In this document: positions 11,238 through 43,999 of the stretch, one piece after another | Numbering within the stretch: position 1 is the first letter of the stretch | Layout: every line of letters starts with the position of its first letter | Assembly (NCBI RefSeq): GCF_001553645.1 | Contig: NZ_CP014231.1 | Span: 744,001-808,000 of the forward strand | Direction: 5' to 3' | Length of the DNA: 64,000 bases | Source of the DNA: Leptotrichia sp. oral taxon 847 | GTDB taxonomy: Bacteria > Fusobacteriota > Fusobacteriia > Fusobacteriales > Leptotrichiaceae | Made by a program: the position numbers and the translations under genes | The notes under the pieces: model-generated | Databases searched by the model: none | What the model saw: only the letters and a program-made list of their open reading frames with translations | Told to the model about the DNA's origin: nothing

Positions 11238-12665
11238 TTAAAATCCCATACATTTTAATGTTTTTACATTTCCTTTTTTTATTCTTTCAATTTCTTCTTT
11301 ATGCAATTTAACAAAATTTTTAAATTCTTTTTGTGCTTTTTCTATATTTACTTCTTCTAAATTTTCTTTTACATTCTTTATTAAAAATGCAGAATACAAA
11401 TCTCTTTGTATTTTATTTCCTAATATTTCTACCCATCTTTTTGATAGACTTTTCTTTTCATATTCATTTGTACTATGATTTAGTTGACTAGCTTTTACTT
11501 TAAAAGTATCAATTTTTATTATATTTTTTCCAATATATTCTAATTTTCTATTTATTATTTCAATTAATAATGCAGGTGCTCTATTTGATAAAGATTTTCC
11601 AAATCTCTTTTTCTTTTTAAATTTTCCAGTCTTTTCAGATATTTCAGTTTTCTTGCTTCTTCTCTGTAAACCTTTAAAACTCATATTTTCAACTTTTACT
11701 ATTGTTCCAATTTCTAGTATACTATTCGCTAAAATATTATGAGATTGTTCCCTTTTCTCTGCGATTTTTCTCTGTAAATTTGAAAGTTTTAACTTTGTTT
11801 TTACATATGATTTGCTCTTTTTCCATTTTTCTTTATTTTCTATATTAATAGTACCATCAGCATTGTATTTATTAGGATTGTTTGCTCTTCTCTGTCTATC
11901 TAGTTTTCTTTGTAGCCTTGTTTTTTCTTTTTCATTTATTTCTATATTTTCAGCTAAAATCTTTAATTCTACTTTATTATCACTAACGATTGCTATTGTT
12001 GAAGTTCCTATATCAATTCCAATTTCATTTTCTCCACCGACTTTATGTTTTTTAGGAGGTGTCCCCTCAAAAGTTATTTGAACGTAGTATTTATTTTTTC
12101 CATTTACAACCCTCTTAAGTAATCTACAATACAATAACTTATCTAAAAAACAACTTTGTGCATATTTATCATTATTTTTTATTATTACAGGAATCTTTAA
12201 GCCTAACCAAGATATGCAACAATCTTCTTTAAAAAATCTAAGTCCTGTAATATTACCTTTTTCTCTAACTGAGTAGAAATTTCCATAACTTTTAAAATAT
12301 ACTTTTTTAGCTTTACCATACTTAAATTTTTCATAAGTCGCAAAAGCTCTTTCAGCTAATTCTTGTCCCATTTGTGAACCTATATTTTTTTTAAATTTTT
12401 GAGTCATAGCTTTTACAAATTTATTTAATTCAAATTTAGATATTAGATATTTTTTCTTAAGTTCTTTATATTTTTTAGATTGTTCTTTTTTATCTAATTT
12501 CTTAATTTCTTTATATTCAGAAGAATTTATCATTTTTCTATGTCTTTTAAGAATTTCACTAAGGCAAGAATTATATATCATTCTGGCTATGTTTAGTCTC
12601 TTTTCTAAAATATGTTCTTGCCATAGTTCAGTTTTTAAAGCTAATGTTAATACATAATTCGCCAT
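11238..12665 (-). CDS. tnpB: TnpB RNA-guided endonuclease, zinc-finger-less form
   Basis: 475 residues. The RuvC-like active site is complete: D218 in IGIDIGTS, E326 in VKVENMSFKG and D422 in IQRDLYSAFL. The N-terminal helical part (residues 1-130) and a Lys/Arg-rich bridge (250-310) fit TnpB. The usual CxxC...CxxC zinc ribbon between the last two acidic residues is absent; that place reads KASQLNHSTNEYEKKSLSKR with no Cys. TnpB is known to cut DNA with an omega RNA guide and to keep the element in place after TnpA excision. It starts 12 bp after tnpA. Confidence 0.93.
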   Translation of the reverse strand: MANYVLTLALKTELWQEHILEKRLNIARMIYNSCLSEILKRHRKMINSSEYKEIKKLDKKEQSKKYKELKKKYLISKFELNKFVKAMTQKFKKNIGSQMGQELAERAFATYEKFKYGKAKKVYFKSYGNFYSVREKGNITGLRFFKEDCCISWLGLKIPVIIKNNDKYAQSCFLDKLLYCRLLKRVVNGKNKYYVQITFEGTPPKKHKVGGENEIGIDIGTSTIAIVSDNKVELKILAENIEINEKEKTRLQRKLDRQRRANNPNKYNADGTINIENKEKWKKSKSYVKTKLKLSNLQRKIAEKREQSHNILANSILEIGTIVKVENMSFKGLQRRSKKTEISEKTGKFKKKKRFGKSLSNRAPALLIEIINRKLEYIGKNIIKIDTFKVKASQLNHSTNEYEKKSLSKRWVEILGNKIQRDLYSAFLIKNVKENLEEVNIEKAQKEFKNFVKLHKEEIERIKKGNVKTLKCMGF

Positions 12666-33351: not shown

Positions 33352-34662
33352 TTATTCATAATCAATTTTTTTAAACAACATTCTTACATCAACTCCATCT
33401 TTTCTATTTTCCAGATAAATTTCCCCATCATTTAACAAAATTATGTCTTTTATAATTGAAAGTCCAATTCCTACTCCTTTTTTAGCATTTTTGCCTTGAA
33501 AATTACGGTTAAACAGTTTTTTCTTCTCTTCCTCAGGAATCCCTTCTCCATAATTTCTTACGATAATTTCAACCATTTCATCTTCTTTGGCAATTAATTC
33601 AATATTTCCAATAGAATATTTTATACTATTGTCTATTAACCCACGTAAAACTTCTGAAATTAGGTTTTTATCAGCGAAAATATTTATTTTCTCGTCCACT
33701 TTTACTATAATTTTTCTTTCAATATTTAAAAGCTCGTAATCTTTTTTTATTTTTTCAAAAAGAGAATTTACATTGATAATTTCTTTTTTTATTGTTATTT
33801 TTTCAAGATTTGAACTTAAAAATAATGTATTTATTATTCTTTCAATATTTTTTACTTCAAGATTCAAATTTTCAATGGCTTCATTTAATAAATCTTTGTC
33901 ATTTTTCCCCCATTCTAATATATCTAAATAACCTTTCATTATAGCAAGAGGCGTCTTTAATTCATGTGACACATCGGAAGAAAATGTTTTTTGACTTTCT
34001 ATAATCTCCTCTTTTTTCTTAAAAGTTTCATTTAAAACATCAATTAATTCTCCAATTTCATCATCTCTTGTTTTAGTCAATTGTGCGTCAATATTATGAT
34101 TATTTATTTCCTTACTTTGAAAAATTATATTTGACAACGGATTTAATACATATTCTGCTACAATTTTTGAAATTATAATAATCGAAATTGTGATTAAAAC
34201 AAACATTACAAGCATAACATACAAGATTTCATGTGCTTCCATAAATTTAAAATTTCTTATTGCATAATATTTTGTATTATTCACAGTATAAATTCTTTTG
34301 TAGACAAATCTGTCCCATTTTGTTTCAAGTTTATTTACTTCAATTTTCTTAAAATCAGAACGATTTTCGTCATCTGTCAAATAAATGAAATCCCCATTTT
34401 TTTCAACCGCAAGAGAAATGTATTGTTTATCGGCATAATCGTAGTTTTTGTAAGTCTGTTTCAATTTATCAATCGGAACATTATTTAATTTTTCAATGGC
34501 AGATAAGACAAGTTTATCCATTTCTTTAGTTTCAGCTTCAACAGCTTTATGAATTAAAAATATGGTCATTCCCAAGATAATTATAAACGAGATAAAAACT
34601 AGACTTACCGTATTTGCAAAAATTATTTTGTCTTTTATTTTTTTTAATCTTATTTTTTTCAT
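33352..34662 (-). CDS. Sensor histidine kinase
   Basis: 436 residues. TM1 (about 13-37), a periplasmic sensor of about 105 residues (LDKLVLSAIEKLNNVPIDKL onward), TM2 (about 143-168), a HAMP-like linker, HisKA with the H-box SHELKTPLAIMKGYLDILEW, and HATPase with N-box RGLIDNSIKYS, G1 YGEGIPEEEKKKLFNRNF and G2 KKGVGIGLSIIKDI. This is a classical membrane sensor. It overlaps the regulator gene by 4 bp (ATGA). Lying beside lipid-A-type modification genes, it is placed like PmrB or PhoQ, but the sensor domain shows no acidic metal patch that I could identify. Confidence 0.95.
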   Translation of the reverse strand: MKKIRLKKIKDKIIFANTVSLVFISFIIILGMTIFLIHKAVEAETKEMDKLVLSAIEKLNNVPIDKLKQTYKNYDYADKQYISLAVEKNGDFIYLTDDENRSDFKKIEVNKLETKWDRFVYKRIYTVNNTKYYAIRNFKFMEAHEILYVMLVMFVLITISIIIISKIVAEYVLNPLSNIIFQSKEINNHNIDAQLTKTRDDEIGELIDVLNETFKKKEEIIESQKTFSSDVSHELKTPLAIMKGYLDILEWGKNDKDLLNEAIENLNLEVKNIERIINTLFLSSNLEKITIKKEIINVNSLFEKIKKDYELLNIERKIIVKVDEKINIFADKNLISEVLRGLIDNSIKYSIGNIELIAKEDEMVEIIVRNYGEGIPEEEKKKLFNRNFQGKNAKKGVGIGLSIIKDIILLNDGEIYLENRKDGVDVRMLFKKIDYE

Positions 34663-35306
34663 ATTTTTAAAATATACCCAATTCCTCTCACAGTCTTAAT
34701 TTTTTCTTTTCCCAATTTTTGCCTAATTTTTTTTATTGTGCTGTCAAGAAGATTGTCGCTTGCATCCCAACCCCATATTTTTTCAACGATTTTATCCCGT
34801 GAAACAATTTCCTCTTTATGTTCAATCAACAATTTAACTAATTCAAATTCCGTCTTTGTCAATAAGATAGGTCTATCCTCCAAATAGACAGAATAATTTT
34901 CTGTATTTAATTTTAAAGTTTTGTAGACAATCTGAGAAAGTTTTTCCTTTCTAATATTTATATCAATTCTTGCATCAAGCTCCAAAAAATCAAAAGGTTT
35001 TGTAACATAATCGCTCGCTCCTGATTTTAATAATTCAACTTTTTCTTCCGTATTATTTTTCGCAGAAACAACAATTATAGGGACTTCTGATATTTTTCTA
35101 ACATTTTTGCAGACATCATTTCCTTCCATCGAAGGAAGTCCCAAATCCAAAAGCATCAAATCATAAAAGTCCCTTTTTTTGTCAATTTCATTTAATGCGT
35201 CAATTCCATTTTCGATTATCGTTATTTCATGATTTTTGTGTTCAAGCTGTAATTTTAAAATACGTGATATTTTTTTATCATCTTCAACAATCAGTATTTT
35301 TCCCAT
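34659..35306 (-). CDS. OmpR/PhoB-family response regulator
   Basis: 215 residues. The receiver domain has acidic pocket IVEDDKK, phospho-acceptor Asp in MLLDLGLPSMEGND, Thr/Ser in VVSAKN and Lys in VTKPFDF. The C-terminal winged helix includes LTKTEFELVKLLIEHKEEIV and IWGWDASDNLLDSTIKKIRQ with GIGYIL. It is translationally coupled to the kinase. OmpR/PhoB relatives bind direct repeats with an 11-bp period. Three such boxes with identical promoter spacing lie nearby (35337, 35529, 37661) and are its probable targets. Confidence 0.95.
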   Translation of the reverse strand: MGKILIVEDDKKISRILKLQLEHKNHEITIIENGIDALNEIDKKRDFYDLMLLDLGLPSMEGNDVCKNVRKISEVPIIVVSAKNNTEEKVELLKSGASDYVTKPFDFLELDARIDINIRKEKLSQIVYKTLKLNTENYSVYLEDRPILLTKTEFELVKLLIEHKEEIVSRDKIVEKIWGWDASDNLLDSTIKKIRQKLGKEKIKTVRGIGYILKI

Positions 35307-35336
35307 TTTTATTTTATCTTTTTCCTTTCTAAAAAT

Positions 35337-35382
35337 TTATTCAGGTTAAATTCATTTTTAAATTTATTTTTTGTGGTATTAT
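35337..35382 (+). promoter_or_regulatory. Response-regulator box and promoter 1
   Basis: TTATTCA-GGTT-AAATTCA (two half-sites, 11-bp period), further AT-rich DNA, and TATTAT at 35377-35382, exactly 40 bp from the box start. No -35 consensus lies 17 bp before the -10; the second half of the region stands there instead, as for activator-dependent promoters. It lies 31 bp from the regulator start but points away from it, toward a short ORF and a terminator-like hairpin. Confidence 0.65.
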
Positions 35383-35418
35383 TAATTATCAAAAATATTA
35401 TATCTCAATTTTGTAAAA

Positions 35419-35520
35419 ATGAAAAGATATAAATTTAATATACTAATAATTTTTTCATCAATAACGATAATTTTAACTAAAAAAGGAGCTTTTCAAAAGT
35501 TCTTTTTTTGTTTTACTTAA
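35419..35520 (+). CDS. 33-residue hydrophobic small ORF behind promoter 1
   Basis: ATG at about 35419 opens MKRYKFNILIIFSSITIILT, then KKGAFQKFFFCF, stop at 35518-35520. It looks like a single membrane segment or a truncated signal peptide. No clear ribosome-binding site is seen, and a terminator-like hairpin overlaps its 3' half. It may be a small regulatory peptide, the stub of a lost gene left by duplication of the promoter, or untranslated. Confidence that it is a gene is low. Confidence 0.25.
   Translation: MKRYKFNILIIFSSITIILTKKGAFQKFFFCFT
35479..35509 (+). terminator. Terminator-like hairpin between promoters 1 and 2
   Basis: AAAAAAGGAGCTTTT and AAAAGTTCTTTTTTT pair imperfectly with a one-base loop and end in a T7 run. 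It would stop transcripts from promoter 1 about 120 nt after their start. Confidence 0.55.
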
Positions 35521-35528
35521 CATAAAAT

Positions 35529-35574
35529 TTATTCAGATTAAATTCATTTTTAAATTTATTTTCTGTGGTATTAT
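35529..35574 (+). promoter_or_regulatory. Response-regulator box and promoter 2 (PAP2 gene)
   Basis: TTATTCA-GATT-AAATTCA, with TATTAT at 35569-35574, again 40 bp from the box start. The whole block 35525-35606 repeats 35333-35414 with about three differences in 81 bp, so it is a tandem promoter duplication with a 192-bp period. It drives the PAP2 phosphatase at 35649. Confidence 0.7.
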
Positions 35575-35648
35575 TAATTATCAAAAATATTATATCTTAA
35601 TTTTAAAGAAATAAAAAAATTTTTTTAACAAAAACAAAGAAGGAGAAG

Positions 35649-36332
35649 GTGATTTTGTTGCAATTAACTACTAATATTTTTTTTATTGACAGATTCTTTT
35701 TTAAACATTTATCATATATCTCAAAATCTAGTATTTTTCATCATTCAGAAAGCACTGAAAATTTTTTCCATTTTATTACTAAATTTGGAGAAGGATACTT
35801 TGAATTGCTGCTGACAGTTGTGTTATTATTGATTTTTTTAATTAATAAAAAGAAATACAATCATTTAAAAAAATATATTTTAGCACTAATTTTTACTTTG
35901 CTTTCCACTCAAATTACAGTAAATATAATGAAAGTATTGTTTGCAAGAGCAAGACCATCGATAACTATAAATCCTGATAAATTTTATGGAATTATGACTT
36001 TGATTAAAAATAGTTCATTTTGGAAAGGAAATTATGTATCTTTTCCATCAGGACATACAATTACTATTTGGGGAACAATTTGGATTTTATCTTTTGTTAT
36101 AAAAAACAAAACTATCAAAATACCGTTATTCATCTTAGGAATTTTAGTAGGAATGAGCCGTATTTATTTAGTGCGACATTGGACTACTGATGTTGTTGCA
36201 AGTGTTATTCTTTCATATTTTATCGCAAAATTTGTACATAAAAAGATATTTGGAAATAAAGAAAAAATTAGAAAAACAAGATTATTTTCTTATGACAGAA
36301 AAACAAATATTGGAATCTTAAAAAAGATATAA
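35649..36332 (+). CDS. PAP2-family membrane phosphatase
   Basis: 227 residues, probable GTG start at 35649 (a TTG at 35658 is also possible, with AAGGTG 6 bp upstream). The three PAP2 motifs are complete: LFARARPS, SFPSGHTITIWG and SRIYLVRHWTTDVVAS. Several membrane segments are visible (VVLLLIFLI, YILALIFTLLSTQITVNIM, IPLFILGILVGM). PAP2 enzymes remove phosphate from lipids such as undecaprenyl pyrophosphate, phosphatidylglycerol phosphate or lipid A (LpxE/LpxF type). Its promoter carries the response-regulator box, which favours a regulated envelope role. The substrate is inferred, not shown. Confidence 0.88.
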   Translation: MILLQLTTNIFFIDRFFFKHLSYISKSSIFHHSESTENFFHFITKFGEGYFELLLTVVLLLIFLINKKKYNHLKKYILALIFTLLSTQITVNIMKVLFARARPSITINPDKFYGIMTLIKNSSFWKGNYVSFPSGHTITIWGTIWILSFVIKNKTIKIPLFILGILVGMSRIYLVRHWTTDVVASVILSYFIAKFVHKKIFGNKEKIRKTRLFSYDRKTNIGILKKI

Positions 36333-36379
36333 TGGCAAATACTTTAAATTATAAAAATAAAAAAATAGAAATTTAAAAA

Positions 36380-36403
36380 CAGGATGATATTTTTATCATC
36401 CTG
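36380..36403 (-). terminator. Hairpin terminator between convergent genes
   Basis: CAGGATGATA-TTTT-TATCATCCTG is a perfect 10-bp stem. On the minus strand it is followed by TTTTT, so it best fits the end of the transcript from 37411-36526; it may also act on the PAP2 message. Confidence 0.7.
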
Positions 36404-36424
36404 CACCATATATTATATTTTGAG

Positions 36425-36450
36425 TTTACACAAAATTCTGGACACTCTCC
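36425..36450. mobile_element. Solo IS256-like end
   Basis: TTTACACAAAATTCTGGACA then CTCTCC repeats the end found at 33268-33294 (TTTACACAAAATTATGGACA then CTCTCC) with one substitution. No partner end or transposase lies close by. It is a relic. Confidence 0.55.
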
Positions 36451-36525
36451 TGTCTTACAACAATGATTATTTTCAATTTTTATCTTTAAAAATACCAATC
36501 TTCTTTAATTAAAATAAATAAACAA

Positions 36526-36933
36526 CTATCTTAATATAGAAAACATAAAAAAGTTATACGGTTTCTTTACTTTGTATTCTTTTGTAATATTTAAAATATC
36601 TTTCTTATTTTTATAATAAATCCCCCTATCTAATCCTTCATTTTTATTTATTAAAAAGTATTCGTTTTTACAATAAGAATATAAATCATATCCTTCTCTG
36701 TATATTGTTATACCGTCTGAACTAACCTTTCCATAATAATATATTCCTTTTTTACCGATTTCTAATATTTTACATCCTTCTTTTCCCTCAAGCCTATAAT
36801 CTCTTTCTCTCCAATTATAAGAAACTGTATCCCAATAAAAACTTTTAAGAACAAAAAAGTTATTTATTATTAACAATTTAAAAGACAGTGCTATTATAGT
36901 TATCAAGACTATTAACATAATTTTTTTTAACAT
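36526..36933 (-). CDS. Unknown protein with N-terminal membrane anchor
   Basis: 135 residues. MLKKIMLIVLITIIALSFKL and the following hydrophobic residues form one membrane anchor. The rest is Tyr/Lys rich (WRERDYRLEGKEGCKILEIG, KGIYYYGKVSSDGITIYREG) and probably extracytoplasmic. No family is recognised. It follows the 115-residue gene with an 11-bp gap, so the three small genes from 37411 to 36526 probably form one transcript. Confidence 0.6.
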   Translation of the reverse strand: MLKKIMLIVLITIIALSFKLLIINNFFVLKSFYWDTVSYNWRERDYRLEGKEGCKILEIGKKGIYYYGKVSSDGITIYREGYDLYSYCKNEYFLINKNEGLDRGIYYKNKKDILNITKEYKVKKPYNFFMFSILR

Positions 36934-36944
36934 CTTTATTACTC

Positions 36945-37292
36945 CTATCTTCTTTTAGGCAATTCTGTTTTTACTTCGTTTTCCATTTCTTTTAGTGACT
37001 TTAAAGTTTTATTAATCTTTATTTCTCTTTTTCGTGTTTTTATTCCAAAAGGATTTCCGCCAATCAATTCTCTTCTTGAAGATTTTTGTGAACCAGAAGC
37101 TAGTACATTACCTACATTATCAAAAGTATCTCTATATTGAATTAGTATTGTTATATTGATATTGTATTCCATTAGTTTTTTTATCTTATCATATGAAAAA
37201 GTAAATAAATTAGTATTCTCTAATGCTGTAAATTCAGTATTAAATAGATTAAAGTCTACTATTTTACGTTCTCTTAGTCTATCTTTTTTCAT
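36945..37292 (-). CDS. Unknown 115-residue basic protein
   Basis: Starts MKKDRLRERKIVDFNLFNTE and ends in a Lys/Arg/Glu-rich helix (KTLKSLKEMENEVKTELPKR). The middle contains LASGSQKSSRRELIGGNPFG, a turn-rich basic patch. There is no signal peptide. The start overlaps the stop of the upstream 40-residue ORF (ATGA), which indicates translational coupling. It may be a fragment of a polymorphic toxin or a nucleic-acid-binding protein, but no family can be named. Confidence 0.5.
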   Translation of the reverse strand: MKKDRLRERKIVDFNLFNTEFTALENTNLFTFSYDKIKKLMEYNINITILIQYRDTFDNVGNVLASGSQKSSRRELIGGNPFGIKTRKREIKINKTLKSLKEMENEVKTELPKRR

Positions 37293-37411
37293 TCATTAAT
37301 ATTTTTCCCTTTAATAAAATTTGTCCATCTATTTATAATTTTATTCATTAAACTTGTAGTAGTTTTATCATTAAATAATCTATACGTTTCATCTGGCATA
37401 TAGTCATCCAT
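37289..37411 (-). CDS. 40-residue ORF coupled to the 115-residue gene
   Basis: MDDYMPDETYRLFNDKTTTS then LMNKIINRWTNFIKGKNIN, stop overlapping the next ATG by 4 bp. The same frame is open upstream (RSWNKQKFI before the Met), so this may be the tail of a longer, truncated gene. Function is unknown. The region from 37412 to 37660 is AT-rich and shows no further gene. Confidence 0.4.
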   Translation of the reverse strand: MDDYMPDETYRLFNDKTTTSLMNKIINRWTNFIKGKNINE

Positions 37412-37660
37412 AATGAATTTTTGTTTATTCCAACTTCTGTTCCTTTTTTTTATTATTTAACATTAATCATATACAAATGTAAATATCTGTTTAAAGAAAA
37501 AAATTAAAAATCTTGCTACTGCAAATTTTCTTATGTATGTACCGATTAATTTATAATTTTTAAGCATAAAATATGTTAAATAATTTAAAATTTAAAGAAT
37601 AATAGCTAAAATCTTTCAAAAGATAAATTCCAGTTTTTCAAATTTCTTTTTTTATAATAT

Positions 37661-37706
37661 TTATTCAGTTTAAATTCATTTTTTAAATATATTTTCGTGC
37701 TATATT
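37661..37706 (+). promoter_or_regulatory. Response-regulator box and promoter 3 (ugd operon)
   Basis: TTATTCA-GTTT-AAATTCA with TATATT at 37701-37706, once more 40 bp from the box start, matching promoters 1 and 2 in half-sites and spacing while the flanks differ. The ugd start is 75 bp downstream of the -10, preceded by AGGAGG. Because this copy is not a simple duplicate of the other two, the shared motif is probably functional. Confidence 0.7.
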
Positions 37707-37780
37707 TATTTTATAGAAGAAATAAAAATGTAAACTTTTTTAAAAATAAAATTAAAAATTAAATTATAGGAGGATCTTTT

Positions 37781-39118
37781 ATGAACGTAACGATAATCGG
37801 AACAGGATACATCGGTTTAGTTCAAGGTGTTGTAATGTCGGATTTAGGATTTGATGTTGTCTGTATTGATAATGATGAAGTAAAAATTGAAACGTTAAAA
37901 CAGGGAAAATCGCCTATTTATGAGCCAGAATTGGAAGAAACTTTAAAAAAGTCATTGAAAAACGGGAAAATTAAATTTACTTTGGATTATAATTCTGGGA
38001 TAAAAAATGCTGATGTGATATTTCTTGCGGTAGGAACGCCACCTTTGGCTGATGGAAGTTCAAATTTGAATTATATCACGGCTGCAATTAAAAATTTAGC
38101 TCAATTTCTTTCAAAAGATAGCCTTATTATTACAAAATCAACTGTTCCGATGGGAACAAACAAAAAAATCAAAAAAATTATTTTAGATGAATTAAAAAAA
38201 AGAAATATGGGTAATCTTAATGTATCAGTTATTTCAAATCCTGAATTTTTAAGGGAAGGAAAGGCTGTTTATGACTTTTTAAATCCTGATAGGATTGTTG
38301 TGGGAATTGATGAAAATGATAATAAAGAAAAAATAAAAAAAGAAATTTATAAAATTTATGAATACTTTTTAAAAAAACAAATTCCAATAATTTTTACAAA
38401 TCTTGAAACGGCAGAATTGTCCAAATATTCTTCAAATGCGTTTTTGTCTGTAAAAATATCATTTATTAATGAAATGGCGATGCTTTCTGAAAAAATAGGA
38501 GCGAATATTGAAGATGTTTCAAAAATTATGGGATTTGACCACAGAATTGGAAATGAATTTTTGAATGCGGGACTTGGTTTTGGAGGTTCCTGTTTTCCAA
38601 AAGACACTCTTGCGATACTAAACATTGGGAAAAATAATGACTGTGAGATGAGTATTGTAAATTCTGCTGTGAAATTTAATAATGATTTGAAAGATATTTT
38701 GATAAAAAAGATAAAAAATAAACTTGGAAGTACAAAAGATAAGACGATTTCGATCTTGGGACTGTCATTTAAGCCAGAAACTAACGATATAAGGGAATCC
38801 CCTGCGATAAAAATAATAAAAAAATTGATAAATTTAGGAGCAAAAATTAAAGTTTATTGTCCTCAAGGGATGGAAAAGACAAAAAAAGAACTTGAAAACT
38901 ATTCAGATTGTATTAAATACTGTAAAAATGAATATGAATGTGCCAAAAATTCAGACTGTCTAATTTTGACTACAGAATGGGAACAATTTAAAAATATGGA
39001 TTTAGAGAGAATAAAAAATGTTATGAAGAGTAATTATTTTTTTGATTTTAGAAATATGTTTTCAGATAATGAAAATATTAGAAATTATTTTCACTATTAT
39101 CCGATTGGGAGAAATTAA
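37781..39118 (+). CDS. ugd: UDP-glucose 6-dehydrogenase
   Basis: 445 residues. The Rossmann motif IIGTGYIGLVQGVVMSDLGF, FLAVGTPP, STVPMGT, NPEFLREGKAVYDFLNPDRI, the central dimer helix and the catalytic Cys271 in GFGGSCFPKDT are all present. The enzyme oxidises UDP-glucose to UDP-glucuronic acid in the cytosol. It is the first gene of an operon that goes on with a glycosyltransferase, an ArnT-like protein and a UDP-uronate epimerase, so its product is probably the sugar source for an envelope modification. AGGAGG gives a strong start. Confidence 0.96.
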   Translation: MNVTIIGTGYIGLVQGVVMSDLGFDVVCIDNDEVKIETLKQGKSPIYEPELEETLKKSLKNGKIKFTLDYNSGIKNADVIFLAVGTPPLADGSSNLNYITAAIKNLAQFLSKDSLIITKSTVPMGTNKKIKKIILDELKKRNMGNLNVSVISNPEFLREGKAVYDFLNPDRIVVGIDENDNKEKIKKEIYKIYEYFLKKQIPIIFTNLETAELSKYSSNAFLSVKISFINEMAMLSEKIGANIEDVSKIMGFDHRIGNEFLNAGLGFGGSCFPKDTLAILNIGKNNDCEMSIVNSAVKFNNDLKDILIKKIKNKLGSTKDKTISILGLSFKPETNDIRESPAIKIIKKLINLGAKIKVYCPQGMEKTKKELENYSDCIKYCKNEYECAKNSDCLILTTEWEQFKNMDLERIKNVMKSNYFFDFRNMFSDNENIRNYFHYYPIGRN

Positions 39119-39157
39119 TGCTCTTTTATTATAAATTTTAAAAAAGGAGGAAAAATT

Positions 39158-39871
39158 ATGGAAATATCATTTGTTGTACCGATTTTTAATGAAGAGGAGA
39201 ATATACTTCTTTTAGTGGAAAAACTGGAATTGGCGGTAAAAGGGAAATATAGTGAATATGAATTTATTTTAGTTGACGACGGGAGTACCGATAAATCAAA
39301 GGAGATTCTTGAAAAATTGTCAAAAGATAAAAAATATTTAAAACCTATTTTTTTTAAGAAAAACTGTGGACAAAGTGCGGCACTTTCGGCAGGATTTAAG
39401 TATTGCAGCGGAGATATTGTCGTGTCAATGGATGGAGATTTGCAGACAAATCCAAAAGATATTTCTCTTCTTATCCCATATTTAAAGGAATATGATATGG
39501 TAAACGGAATGCGTGCGACAAGACAAGACGGCTTTTACAGAAAACTGGCTTCATTAGTTGGAAATTCATTTAGAAATTTTATTACAAAAGACAATATTCG
39601 CGATACAGGTTGTCCTTTAAAAGTATTTAAAAAAGAAGTTGTTAAATCTTTTTACCTGTATAAAGGAATGCACAGATTTTTACCCACACTTGCAAAAATA
39701 AATAGATTTTCTGTGATTGAAATAGCAGTACCGCATTACGACCGTATTTATGGAAAATCGAAATATACGACTTTTAATAGACTATTTGTCGGATTTGAAG
39801 ATGTTTTTGCCGTGAGATGGATGAAAAAAAGGAGAATAGACTATGAAATTGCCGACAAAAAAAATTACTAA
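39158..39871 (+). CDS. Family 2 glycosyltransferase (polyprenyl-phosphate sugar synthase type)
   Basis: 237 residues of the DPM1/GtrB/ArnC group: SFVVPIFNEEENI, ILVDDGSTDKSKEIL, KKNCGQSAALSAGFKYCSGD, SMDGDLQTNPKDI (the DxD-like metal site) and IRDTGCPLKVFKKEV. It lacks the C-terminal membrane pair of ArnC and resembles the shorter DPM1 form. Family members move a sugar from UDP to a polyprenyl phosphate. In this operon the donor is probably UDP-galacturonate or UDP-glucuronate, as for rhizobial RgtE. It overlaps the next ORF by 29 bp. Confidence 0.88.
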   Translation: MEISFVVPIFNEEENILLLVEKLELAVKGKYSEYEFILVDDGSTDKSKEILEKLSKDKKYLKPIFFKKNCGQSAALSAGFKYCSGDIVVSMDGDLQTNPKDISLLIPYLKEYDMVNGMRATRQDGFYRKLASLVGNSFRNFITKDNIRDTGCPLKVFKKEVVKSFYLYKGMHRFLPTLAKINRFSVIEIAVPHYDRIYGKSKYTTFNRLFVGFEDVFAVRWMKKRRIDYEIADKKNY

Positions 39872-41221
39872 ATTCAATTTTTACAAAGGTTTTAAGTTAA
39901 AAAGAAGAAAACTAAAATTTAAATTTGAATATTTTATCCCAATTGTGCTAATTCTCGTAACATTACCACTTTTTAATCGAATGTTTACTCAGAGAAATGA
40001 ATTAAAATATTTGTATATTGCTCAAGATATAATAAAAAATAAAAATCCATTTGTGTATTATTTATCTGGAAAACTTTATACGGATAAACCGCCGTTATTC
40101 TTTTGGATAATTATCTTTTCAAAATTTATTTTTAGAAATTATTATACTTACGGAATTGTTATTTTTAACATATTTATTGAAAGTTTTTTACTCATAAAAT
40201 TATATAGATTTTTAAAAATAAAATTTGACGAGAATATTGCTATAATGTCAATATTTATAACATTTACAGGAATTCTTCAATATATTTCTGTAATCGTAGT
40301 TAGAATGGACATTTATCTTAGCTGTTTCATAGCTTTATCGTTTTTAAATTTTTTTGAATGTTATGAAAAAAATGATTATCAAAAAAATTGGATAACTTTT
40401 GTCTACATCGGATTTGCCTTTTTATTTAAAGGAATTGTAGGACTTTTGACTCCATTATTAGTGATAATTCTTTTCAAATTTACAGCTTCAAAAAAATATT
40501 CTTTAAAAGAGGTAGGATTTTACAAAGGATTATCAATAATTCTAGCATTTGTCCTATTTTGGATAATTCCAGCCTACATAAGTTTAGGAAATATTTTCAT
40601 TAATGAATTATTTTCTAAACAACTTTTTGGAAGAGCAGTGAAAGCTTTTGCCCATAAAAGACCGTTTTATTATTATTTATATACTTTACCAATGACAGTA
40701 TTTCCGTGGACTGTGTATTCGGTGTATGTGATGTATAAATCCATCATTTCTTGGATTAAAGAAAAAAATACGAGCGATTTTGAAAAATTTCTATTAATAT
40801 GGATTTTTTCAACATTATTTTATTTGTCAGTTTCAAGTAGTAAACTTGTCATTTACTTACTTCCAATTGTAACTCCAATTGGAATTTTGACGGCTATAAA
40901 TTATAAAAAAATCCCTTTTGAAACAAAAAATATTCTTTTTTCATAACAATTTCTATTTTTATAGTAACTCCAATCGTTATGATTTTCTCAAATTCAAGAG
41001 ATTTTGTTCCATTTAAAGTAATTTCTATTTTTTCACTATTCAATATAGGAATGGTAAGTTTATTATTATTTTTAAAAGCTGGAAAAAAAGTAGGATTTAT
41101 ATTTTTGGGATTACTATTTCCAATAGTTACTTTTGTTGCAGGATTTAATATAAGTAAAATAAACAAAATGACAGATGCGAGAAATTATGATTCAAACTAT
41201 ATTTACATAGAAAAAAAATAA
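39843..41221 (+). pseudogene. ArnT-like glycosyltransferase (GT83/PMT type), split by a frameshift at a T6 run
   Basis: The first ORF (39843-40946, 367 residues) has a basic N-terminus, FIPIVLILVTLPLFN, NELKYLYIAQDIIKNKNPFV, DKPPLFFWIII (catalytic-loop-like Asp-Lys-Pro-Pro), and many membrane segments. It stops after ETKNILFS. One extra T in the T6 run at 40936-40941 would continue as FITISIFIVTPIVMIFSN through 41221, giving 459 residues, a normal ArnT/Rgt length. ArnT-like enzymes transfer a sugar from a polyprenyl carrier to lipid A in the periplasm. The 367-residue form lacks the C-terminal region. It may be phase-variable, dead, or a sequencing error. Confidence 0.8.
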
Positions 41222-41242
41222 AACTAAATGGGAGAAAATAAA

Positions 41243-41533
41243 ATGGAAAAAATATTTATAATTTTAGGATTAGCAGGACAACTGATGTTTTCTGCAAGAT
41301 TTTTAGTTCAATGGATTGCGAGCGAAAAAAGAAAAAAAAGCGTTGTTCCAATTTCATTTTGGTTTTTAAGCCTTTTTGGAAGTTTTCTTTTATTAATTTA
41401 TGCAATTTACAGAAAAGATATTGTCTTTACTTTGGGACAATTATTTGGATTTATCGTTTATATAAGAAATTTACTTATTATTAAAAATACAGAAAAAATA
41501 GAAAAAAATATAAAGAAAGGAAAATTGAAATAA
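41243..41533 (+). CDS. LAB_N-domain membrane protein
   Basis: 96 residues with three membrane segments (IFIILGLAGQLMFSARFLVQ; VVPISFWFLSLFGSFLLLIY; LGQLFGFIVYIRNLLII). FSARFLVQWIASEKRKKSVV and PISFWFLSLFGS are the signature of the LpxB N-terminal-like domain (LAB_N, PF07578), found as a stand-alone protein next to ArnC/ArnT-like genes. A carrier-flipping or helper role has been suggested by context. I start at 41243, with GGGAG 8 bp upstream. It lies between the ArnT-like gene and the epimerase. Confidence 0.85.
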   Translation: MEKIFIILGLAGQLMFSARFLVQWIASEKRKKSVVPISFWFLSLFGSFLLLIYAIYRKDIVFTLGQLFGFIVYIRNLLIIKNTEKIEKNIKKGKLK

Positions 41534-41534
41534 A

Positions 41535-42581
41535 ATGAAAACTTATTTAATCACAGGTGGAGCGGGATTTATCGGATCCCATCTTGTAAAAAAATTATTA
41601 TCAGAAAATTTTAAAGTAATTGTAGTAGATAATTTTGACGATTTTTATGATTACAAAATCAAAATTTCCAATTTGTGTGAAGCAACAAATACTTCTTTTC
41701 AAATAAAATATGACAAAAAAGAAAAAAATCTAAAAGAATTTGTCAACTTTATAAATAATGCAGATAAAAATATGATTTTATTAAACAAAGACATCAGAAA
41801 TTTCGATGATTTGAAAGAAGTTTTTAAAAGCTATAAATTTGACGGAATCGTGCATTTAGCAGCAAAAGCTGGAGTGCGACCATCTTTTGAAAAACCATTG
41901 GATTACGAAGAAACAAATATAAAAGGAACTTTAAATTTATTGGAATTATGTAAAAAATTTAAAATTAACAATTTTGTCTGTGCTTCTTCATCTTCAGTTT
42001 ACGGAGATACACCAAAATTTCCTTTTTCAGAAAACGATGACATAAAAAAAACTTTATCGCCTTATGCTCTAACTAAAAAAACTTGCGAAGAAATGGCGTA
42101 TCTATATTACAAAAATTACAGTATAAAAGTCGTAATGCTCAGATTTTTTACAGTTTATGGACCAGGACAGCGGCCAGATTTAGCTATTCATAAATTTGCA
42201 AAAAAACTGAAATACAATGAAAAAATATCAATTTATGGAGATGGCAAGACAGGACGGGACTATACTTATATTGATGATATAATCGCAGGAATCATAGCTT
42301 CAATAAACTTTATAAACCAAAAAAATGAATGTTACGAAATCTTTAATCTCGGAAACAACAGAGTGATAACTCTTATGGAAATGGTAAAAACAATGGAAAA
42401 AATTTCAGGCTACAAAGCTGATTTAGAATTTTGCGACTTTCAAAAAGGAGATATGCCGATGACATACGCTGATATTTCCAAAGCCAAAAAACTTCTTGAT
42501 TATAGTCCAAAAACAGATTTTGAAGATGGAATAGAAAAATTTTTTGAATGGTTTGAGAAAAAAGAAAGTGGTGAAATTTAA
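41535..42581 (+). CDS. NAD-dependent epimerase, UDP-glucuronate 4-epimerase type
   Basis: 348 residues. GGAGFIGSHLVKKLL binds NAD; the catalytic set is SSSSVYG and Tyr177-x3-Lys181 in SPYALTKKTCEE. RFFTVYGPGQRPDLAIHKFA, DYTYIDDI and NLGNNRVITLMEMV are typical of the UDP-GlcA/UDP-GalA 4-epimerases (GAE/Gla/LspL). It follows ugd in the same operon, so it most likely makes UDP-galacturonate from UDP-glucuronate. There is an insertion (about 45-85) relative to short epimerases. Its ATG lies just after the LAB_N stop, and it overlaps the PAP2 gene by one base. Confidence 0.9.
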   Translation: MKTYLITGGAGFIGSHLVKKLLSENFKVIVVDNFDDFYDYKIKISNLCEATNTSFQIKYDKKEKNLKEFVNFINNADKNMILLNKDIRNFDDLKEVFKSYKFDGIVHLAAKAGVRPSFEKPLDYEETNIKGTLNLLELCKKFKINNFVCASSSSVYGDTPKFPFSENDDIKKTLSPYALTKKTCEEMAYLYYKNYSIKVVMLRFFTVYGPGQRPDLAIHKFAKKLKYNEKISIYGDGKTGRDYTYIDDIIAGIIASINFINQKNECYEIFNLGNNRVITLMEMVKTMEKISGYKADLEFCDFQKGDMPMTYADISKAKKLLDYSPKTDFEDGIEKFFEWFEKKESGEI

Positions 42582-43114
42582 TGAATATATTGCAAAATTT
42601 TGATTTATTAGTAATTGAAGCACTATACCACATCCATGAGCCGATTTTAGATAAAATTATGATTTTTTTTACAGATTTAGGAAATACAATCTGGGTAGTA
42701 ATAACCATATGGCTTTTAATAAATAAAAAAACAAGAAAAACAGGCTTAAAAGCAGCAGCAGCACTTATTATATTTCTTCTGATAGTTAATGTTGGTTTAA
42801 AACCTTTCTTTCATAGAACAAGACCTTTTAAATATTTAAAAGACATAGTTTTATTAATCCCGGAACCAAGTAGTTTTTCGTTTCCATCGGCACATACAGC
42901 ATCAGCTTTTACAATGGTTTATATTTTTTATAAAGATATTAAAAAATATTTTCCTGGCGTACTGATTTTAGCTATTTTAATATCACTTTCAAGATTGTAT
43001 CTAAGCGTACATTTTCCCACCGATGTAATGGCAGGAATTGGGATAGGATTATTTTCAGGATTTTTAGGAAATAGTTTAATTAATAATTTTGAATTTAAAG
43101 GAGAAAAGCAATGA
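42581..43114 (+). CDS. PAP2-family membrane phosphatase, second copy
   Basis: 177 residues. The PAP2 motifs are KPFFHRTRPF, SFPSAHTASAF and SRLYLSVHFPTDVMAG, with several membrane segments (IWVVITIWLLI, ALIIFLLIVNVGL, GVLILAILISL). The size resembles BcrC/UppP-type and small LpxE-like phosphatases. In this operon it could recycle the polyprenyl carrier after sugar transfer or remove a lipid A phosphate; I cannot choose between them. It overlaps both neighbours (TAATG before, ATGA after), so it is an integral part of the operon. Confidence 0.9.
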   Translation: MNILQNFDLLVIEALYHIHEPILDKIMIFFTDLGNTIWVVITIWLLINKKTRKTGLKAAAALIIFLLIVNVGLKPFFHRTRPFKYLKDIVLLIPEPSSFSFPSAHTASAFTMVYIFYKDIKKYFPGVLILAILISLSRLYLSVHFPTDVMAGIGIGLFSGFLGNSLINNFEFKGEKQ

Positions 43115-43230
43115 AAAAAATAATAATTTTATTAATATCTGTTTTACTTTTGATTTCTCAATGTACAAGTTATCAAAATAATGATGATTTTTGTTCGATA
43201 GTGATTCCGACTTGTGAGATTAATAAATAA
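43111..43230 (+). CDS. 39-residue lipoprotein at the end of the ugd operon
   Basis: MKKIIILLISVLLLISQCTS is a lipoprotein signal peptide with the lipobox LISQ-C at Cys18. The mature part is only about 22 residues (ends SIVIPTCEINK) with two further Cys. The start overlaps the PAP2 stop (ATGA), and GGAG lies 7 bp upstream, so translation is likely. Tiny lipoproteins of this kind can be regulators or entericidin-like. No family is recognised. Confidence 0.65.
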   Translation: MKKIIILLISVLLLISQCTSYQNNDDFCSIVIPTCEINK

Positions 43231-43528: not shown

Positions 43529-43999
43529 ATGAAAATTATAAAAAAAATAATATTATTTTTAGGTGCAATAACTCTTGTCTTATGGGGAAACTATGCTAGA
43601 CAGCAATCCAAAATTACTGAAATAACCACAGAAAATAATTCTTCTGAAAATGTAAATTCTTTAGTAGACGGGACAACTATTGAAAATAAATCCTCTGAAA
43701 GAGCAATTTCTTCAGAAGAAAAGACTGATAATTCTGTAAAAAAAGAAAAAAAACGATTTAAGAGATCTTCAATTTCTTCAAAATTGAAAGAAAATTCAAA
43801 AAATAATAATTCAACTGTCGAACAAAAAGAGTCCGAAAAAACAACTTCTTCTAAAGTGGAAAATAAAAATTCAGAAAATATAAATAATTCAAATAATCAA
43901 AAAGAGAATAAAGATACCGGGAAAAAAACTGGTGAGGAGAAAAAAACAAATTCAACTGAAACAAAAAATCCTGAAAAATCAACTTCAATTAAAAATTGA
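43529..43999 (+). CDS. Low-complexity exported protein
   Basis: 156 residues. A basic N-terminus and hydrophobic stretch (MKIIKKIILFLGAITLVLWG) export or anchor the protein. The rest is almost only Ser, Thr, Asn, Lys and Glu (ENSKNNNSTVEQKESEKTTS), so it is disordered and wall- or surface-linker-like. GGAGG precedes the ATG. After the stop, another frame continues as IEGYLIEENGKIHYTYGFLK to about 44075, which may be a lost C-terminal repeat. Function is unknown. Confidence 0.6.
   Translation: MKIIKKIILFLGAITLVLWGNYARQQSKITEITTENNSSENVNSLVDGTTIENKSSERAISSEEKTDNSVKKEKKRFKRSSISSKLKENSKNNNSTVEQKESEKTTSSKVENKNSENINNSNNQKENKDTGKKTGEEKKTNSTETKNPEKSTSIKN

Follow-up and report, generated by a model that had tools for sequence, protein, structure and literature searches.

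Whether a fusobacterium can modify its lipid A with an acidic sugar in response to a signal is the question raised by a locus at 33352-43230 of a 64,000-nucleotide window of Leptotrichia sp. oral taxon 847 (positions 744001-808000 of the closed 2.19-Mb genome, contig NZ_CP014231.1; all feature coordinates below are positions in this window). The locus holds a two-component system, two phosphatases of the PAP2 family (PAP2a and PAP2b) and an operon that begins with ugd. A preliminary description of the same DNA had proposed that this organism senses an envelope signal and swaps lipid A phosphates for uronic acid. Our analysis confirms the gene set and its control, and shows both to extend further than that description supposed. 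From sequence, we put at about 0.6 the probability that the cassette is designed for regulated attachment of galacturonic acid (GalA) to lipid A, a figure that applies to the design and not to activity in this strain. That the organism itself carries out the swap was overstated, because a frameshift interrupts its ArnT-like gene and most congeners have kept the regulator and PAP2a but not the operon. The literature searched, which covers few subscription journals, yielded no earlier description of such a regulated set in fusobacteria, in line with what had first been said.

In the proposed route, a signal at the envelope would be sensed by the two-component system, whose OmpR-type regulator would bind a box, TTTATTCAGNTTAAATTCATTTTT, near the -35 positions of the PAP2a gene and the ugd operon. 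Ugd would form uridine diphosphate (UDP)-glucuronic acid (UDP-GlcA), an epimerase would convert it to UDP-GalA, and an ArnC/RgtE-like GT2 would load GalA onto polyprenyl phosphate. A LAB_N protein may help to anchor or flip this polyprenyl-P-GalA donor and, in the periplasm, an LpxE-like phosphatase (PAP2b) would take a phosphate off lipid A, to which the ArnT-like transferase would add GalA. The genus comparison covers 13 members, the genome of the window included, the survey of ArnT-like genes covers 96 genomes of the order, and that of the box core covers 98 genomes of the phylum. G078, G075 and G073 are congeners, G075 being the sister genome of the window strain.

Organization of the locus

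Open reading frames and profile matches place the named genes in the families, and at the positions, first assigned to them. The sensor histidine kinase (33352..34662, minus strand; HisKA and HATPase_c) has two transmembrane helices (19-37 and 146-164) and a periplasmic domain of about 110 residues, and lies beside the OmpR/PhoB-type response regulator (34659..35306, minus strand; Response_reg and Trans_reg_C). All other genes are on the plus strand. PAP2a, a membrane phosphatase (35649..36332; PF01569), has the motifs KX6RP, PSGH and SRX5HX3D. The operon then runs from the UDP-glucose 6-dehydrogenase Ugd (37781..39118; UDPG_MGDP_dh, and TIGR03026 above cut-off) to the GT2, a predicted ArnC/RgtE-like polyprenyl-phosphate uronosyltransferase (39158..39871; Glycos_transf_2) that lacks C-terminal transmembrane helices. 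The ArnT-like GT-C glycosyltransferase that follows belongs to the family first assigned (PRK13279, PMT_2) but is not one intact gene: its N-terminal 367 residues are encoded at 39843..40946 and its C-terminal part, continuous in G078, lies out of frame at 40979..41221. Next come the small LAB_N membrane protein with three helices (41228..41533; PF07578, E 2e-33), the UDP-glucuronate 4-epimerase (41535..42581; best PDB matches 5u4q and the Bacillus cereus enzyme BcUGAepi, 6zl6) and PAP2b, an LpxE/YodM-like lipid phosphatase (42581..43114; best PDB match Aquifex LpxE, 6ebu). The tiny lipoprotein of the preliminary description is present as a 39-residue reading frame (43111..43230), identical in G075, whose lipobox, LISQC, is weak. 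The genes of the operon are closely packed: GT2 and the ArnT-like gene share 29 bp, LAB_N and the epimerase are 1 bp apart, the epimerase overlaps PAP2b by 1 bp, and PAP2b overlaps the 39-residue frame by 4 bp.

Probable control by the adjoining two-component system

Since the PmrA and PmrB scores fall under the equivalog cut-offs (139 versus 330 bits and 100 versus 314 bits), the two-component system is, by its sequence, an analog of PmrAB rather than an ortholog. An ortholog of the regulator (at least 89%) is present in 12 of the 13 genus members, own genome counted, and orthologs of the kinase adjoin the GT2/ArnT cassette in other genera.

The box, hinted at in the preliminary description, was borne out. 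TTTATTCAGNTTAAATTCATTTTT occurs on the plus strand in three perfect 24/24 copies (35336..35359, 35528..35551 and 37660..37683) against 0.03 expected in shuffles, and no further site with fewer than three mismatches exists in the genome. Copies 2 and 3 share one geometry, in which a -10-like element (TATTAT at 35569-35574 for PAP2a, TATATT at 37701-37706 for ugd) lies 41 bp downstream of the first base of the box, and the box ends 97 bp 5' of the start codon; this would be the position of a stand-in for the -35 element, as for OmpR/PhoB-type activators. Copy 1 lies within a 117-bp promoter duplication (repeat family D1). Autoregulation of the regulator was rejected as the main role of the box: its orientation and the -10-like element assign it to PAP2a, and a duplicated PAP2a promoter accounts for copy 1.

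An 18-base core of the box gave 19 matches in 12 of the 98 phylum genomes, and the reversed-pattern control gave 0. Box sites precede PAP2a in most, indeed nearly all, congeners; they precede GT2 in G046 and G084, and a variant does so in G086, G087 and G089. The operon of G078 lies about 245 kb from the two-component system, though a box with 3 mismatches to the full form still precedes ugd. The box is thus found 5' of target genes even when these are far from the two-component system, and therefore tracks targets and not merely neighbourhood. The case that the regulator binds the box is strong, and conserved linkage together with the box supports control of the operon by the adjoining two-component system, as had been proposed.

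Other genes carry the box in congeners. A PepSY-domain exported protein is boxed in G078 and G073 (L138:13076-13600, L160:1334-1858) and is probably a regulon member there, and a Lys/Glu/Ser-rich exported protein (L175:1606-2097) is boxed in G073; the window homolog of the latter (43529-43999) has no box. Elsewhere in the window an OrfB/IS605-type transposase (11238-12665, weak Pfam match) is similar, by eye, to a reading frame near the two-component system in L161:6347-7444.

Identity of the sugar

Ugd and the epimerase are each single-copy in the genome. Neither is present in the three tested congeners without the operon, and among the tested congeners both occur only alongside the operon or its remnant, which supports the earlier view that the sugar is a uronic acid. 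The epimerase has the equivalents of Thr178 and Arg185 in FTVYGPGQRPD and its catalytic Tyr and Lys in YALTK; in the product complex of the B. cereus UDP-GlcA 4-epimerase, the UDP-GalA carboxylate is bound by Arg185 (PMC12338863). The genome has no full-length DegT/ArnB-type aminotransferase, only weak partial DegT matches (best E 3e-12). The earlier statement that arnA, arnB and arnD are missing therefore holds across the genome for a full-length ArnB-type enzyme, and for ArnA and ArnD within the operon, no genome-wide search for either having been made. Because a single-copy Ugd stands with a UDP-GlcA-type epimerase that has the Arg185 equivalent, and no full-length ArnB is found, UDP-GalA is the expected product, and the predicted chemistry up to this point is well supported. 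The case for GalA as the transferred sugar is likewise strong; with a uronate expected rather than 4-amino-4-deoxy-L-arabinose (Ara4N), the modification would therefore be acidic and not cationic.

Capsule loci often contain Ugd and UDP-GlcA epimerases, and the pair here might serve a capsule or another uronate polysaccharide, with its place in the operon incidental. The closest relatives of the epimerase outside the order (about 53%) agree with this, as they lie in Chryseobacterium-type genomes and the contig search showed no cassette alongside. The operon, however, has no Wzx, Wzy or priming transferase, its genes overlap or abut, GT2, the ArnT-like gene and LAB_N among them, and in Cetobacterium and a metagenome-assembled Fusobacterium genome the cassette likewise contains the epimerase and Ugd, so that we consider a capsule role improbable. 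The epimerase alone was rejected as a marker of the cassette: it is not diagnostic, the contig search having returned mostly Chryseobacterium-type loci without the cassette.

Transfer enzymes and the acceptor

The best NCBIfam match of GT2 is ArnC, and its best PDB match is ArnC (9hwj, 3e-37) over the catalytic domain only; no transmembrane segment was found in it. Polyprenyl-P-GalA is its likely product. For LAB_N, a profile of the family and an AlphaFold model of moderate quality (two sequences, pLDDT 74) weakly point to SemiSWEET transporters; the model has no fold match at E 0.001 and the resemblance is a hint. A role as flippase or as anchor for GT2 is a guess. The ArnT-like protein matches its family with E 1e-24 (PRK13279), and the intact G078 ortholog matches CmArnT (5ezm, E 1e-8). 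Because this ortholog scores 88 bits, far under the 567-bit NCBIfam ArnT equivalog cut-off, the enzyme is ArnT-like and not ArnT.

PAP2b has complete PAP2 motifs, and its PDB ranking is headed by LpxE (2e-15), followed by YodM (3e-10). It may possibly act on phosphatidylglycerophosphate or undecaprenyl-PP instead of lipid A. LpxC is present, and with it the committed step of lipid A synthesis. We know of no lipid A structure for the fusobacterial hosts of this set. The case for lipid A as the acceptor is of moderate strength and is built on ArnT family membership, the likeness of PAP2b to LpxE and the finding of LpxC; our confidence in the roles proposed for LAB_N and PAP2b is weak to moderate.

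Several observations weigh against GalA attachment to lipid A. Asp55 and Asp158 are acidic residues with a functional role in CmArnT; the Asp158 equivalent is retained (RMD), whereas Asn takes the place of Asp55 in the window and in 19 of the 20 homologs of the clade, where a conserved Glu follows, G046 having Asp. G046 has the cassette, yet neither Ugd nor the epimerase was found in this draft genome, which is 90% complete, and G078 has no PAP2b downstream. An ArnT-like gene is present in only 2 of the 13 genus members (absent from 11), yet in 36 of the 96 genomes of the order. In the window, one T is missing, relative to G078, from a T7 run near 40935, and the ArnT-like protein ends after 367 residues. 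The sister genome G075 has lost the core of the cassette by a 3-kb deletion, from about residue 349 of Ugd to about residue 110 of the epimerase.

The same chemistry could also serve another acceptor, with GalA added in the periplasm to the lipopolysaccharide core, the O-antigen or a different surface glycan, in the manner of Gtr-type systems. GT2, a small membrane protein and a GT-C enzyme form a general three-component plan for decorating periplasmic glycans (PMC11127046). The 88-bit ArnT match and the exchange of Asp55 for Asn fit such an acceptor, and several Fusobacteriaceae loci have two different GT-C enzymes, so that more than one acceptor site is likely. Rhizobial Rgt enzymes for the core and for lipid A are both ArnT-like, and therefore ArnT homology alone cannot decide the acceptor. 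The GT-C enzymes nevertheless match ArnT best, an LpxE-like PAP2b lies in the operon and another PAP2 adjoins LAB_N/ArnT in G046, and we judge an acceptor other than lipid A to be rather unlikely.

A second ArnT-like type (MEARNFITA ... EKPP ... TWD) is found in the same cassettes in L143, L147, L150, L152, L157 and L099, the last from a metagenome-assembled Fusobacterium genome, which suggests two acceptor sites. A plasmid search gave no rhizobial RgtF for comparison, leaving named fusobacterial and ArnT matches only.

State of the locus in this strain

The two ArnT-like reading frames of the window are in different frames, and the G078 ortholog, 97% identical, is a single frame of 459 residues. 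A frameshift in the last enzyme means that the pathway may be inactive in this strain, and its function here is doubtful. The locus could be a decaying relic whose two-component system serves mainly PAP2a, and in which UDP-GalA, and possibly polyprenyl-P-GalA, would be produced from the operon with no consequence; this is compatible with lipid A galacturonylation as the design of the cassette. Decay agrees with the frameshift, with the core deletion in G075 and with the retention of the two-component system and PAP2a, without the operon, in most congeners. Against it, the remaining operon genes are all open with motifs intact, the promoter box is perfect, and the frameshift sits in a T homopolymer, where an assembly error is possible. 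We rate decay at somewhat less than an even chance. The deletion in G075 left an in-frame Ugd-epimerase chimera of 593 residues (L158:5809-7590), which carries a scar from the ArnT C-terminus.

Recurrence across Fusobacteriales

The GT2/LAB_N/ArnT cassette beside a two-component system is, by sequence, recurrent across Fusobacteriales and not unique to this genome. Of 17 related regions that have the GT2, 16 carry a regulator gene no more than 3.4 kb from it, usually in divergent orientation and 130-260 bp away; the named cases, Ilyobacter polytropus and Cetobacterium somerae, have generic annotation only. Ilyobacter, Sebaldella and G078-like species have the cassette intact. Two regulator clades are seen: the window regulator, the box-bearing relatives and G046 belong to one, and the Fusobacteriaceae regulators, without the box, to the other. 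A single box for all Fusobacteriales was rejected, since Fusobacteriaceae regulators form another clade with upstream regions that lack it.

Upstream of GT2, the Fusobacteriaceae cassettes (L144-L157) have a different common stretch, TTTTTACCAAATMTTCATC-like, tied to the second regulator clade. G084 (L170:8889-10464) retains the two-component system, box and GT2 with no ArnT-like or LAB_N gene nearby, and its GT2 may have a different role.

We offer only tentatively the broader proposal of signal-controlled lipid A galacturonylation throughout Fusobacteriales, with two regulator clades, ArnT-like enzymes that have Asn-Glu for Asp-Glu and whose target is the lipid A hydroxyl exposed by a co-regulated PAP2, and a SemiSWEET-like LAB_N as flippase for the uronate donor. 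If the proposed route to lipid A is right, fusobacteria, oral and gut species included, would alter the charge and phosphate content of lipid A on demand by a route separate from Arn and Ept, which would matter for their encounters with host peptides and TLR4. It would also give a concrete candidate role to LAB_N proteins and to an ArnT-like clade whose catalytic motif is altered.

Comparison with known systems

The Arn system (pmrHFIJKLM) under PmrAB/PhoPQ resembles the fusobacterial set in having Ugd, an ArnC-like GT2, an ArnT-like transferase and control by an OmpR-type two-component system; unlike it, this genome lacks a full-length ArnB-type aminotransferase and the operon lacks arnA, arnD, arnE and arnF. 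With Gtr-type three-component periplasmic glycosylation the set shares GT2, a small membrane protein and GT-C, but the fusobacterial unit includes uronate supply genes, phosphatases and a two-component system, and its GT-C is of ArnT type. The epimerase shares with BcUGAepi the Thr178 and Arg185 equivalents, SSVYG and Tyr-X3-Lys; it exceeds BcUGAepi by about 20 residues, has an insertion close to its N-terminus, and its activity is predicted from sequence.

The closest functional parallels, by analogy, are the clustered rgtE-rgtF-lpxE of Mesorhizobium loti for lipid A 1-GalA (PMC5644692) and the lipid A of Aquifex pyrophilus, in which GalA replaces both phosphates (PMC6581854). In the rhizobial, Aquifex and Caulobacter systems GT2 makes polyprenyl-P-GalA, and GalA stands in place of lipid A phosphate; the fusobacterial set resembles them in its DPM-type GT2, ArnT-like GT-C and nearby putative lipid A phosphatase (PMC5644692, PMC7663294, PMC6581854). 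It differs in belonging to another phylum and in having its own two-component system and box, an operon that includes Ugd and the 4-epimerase, a LAB_N protein, and a GT2 without transmembrane segments.

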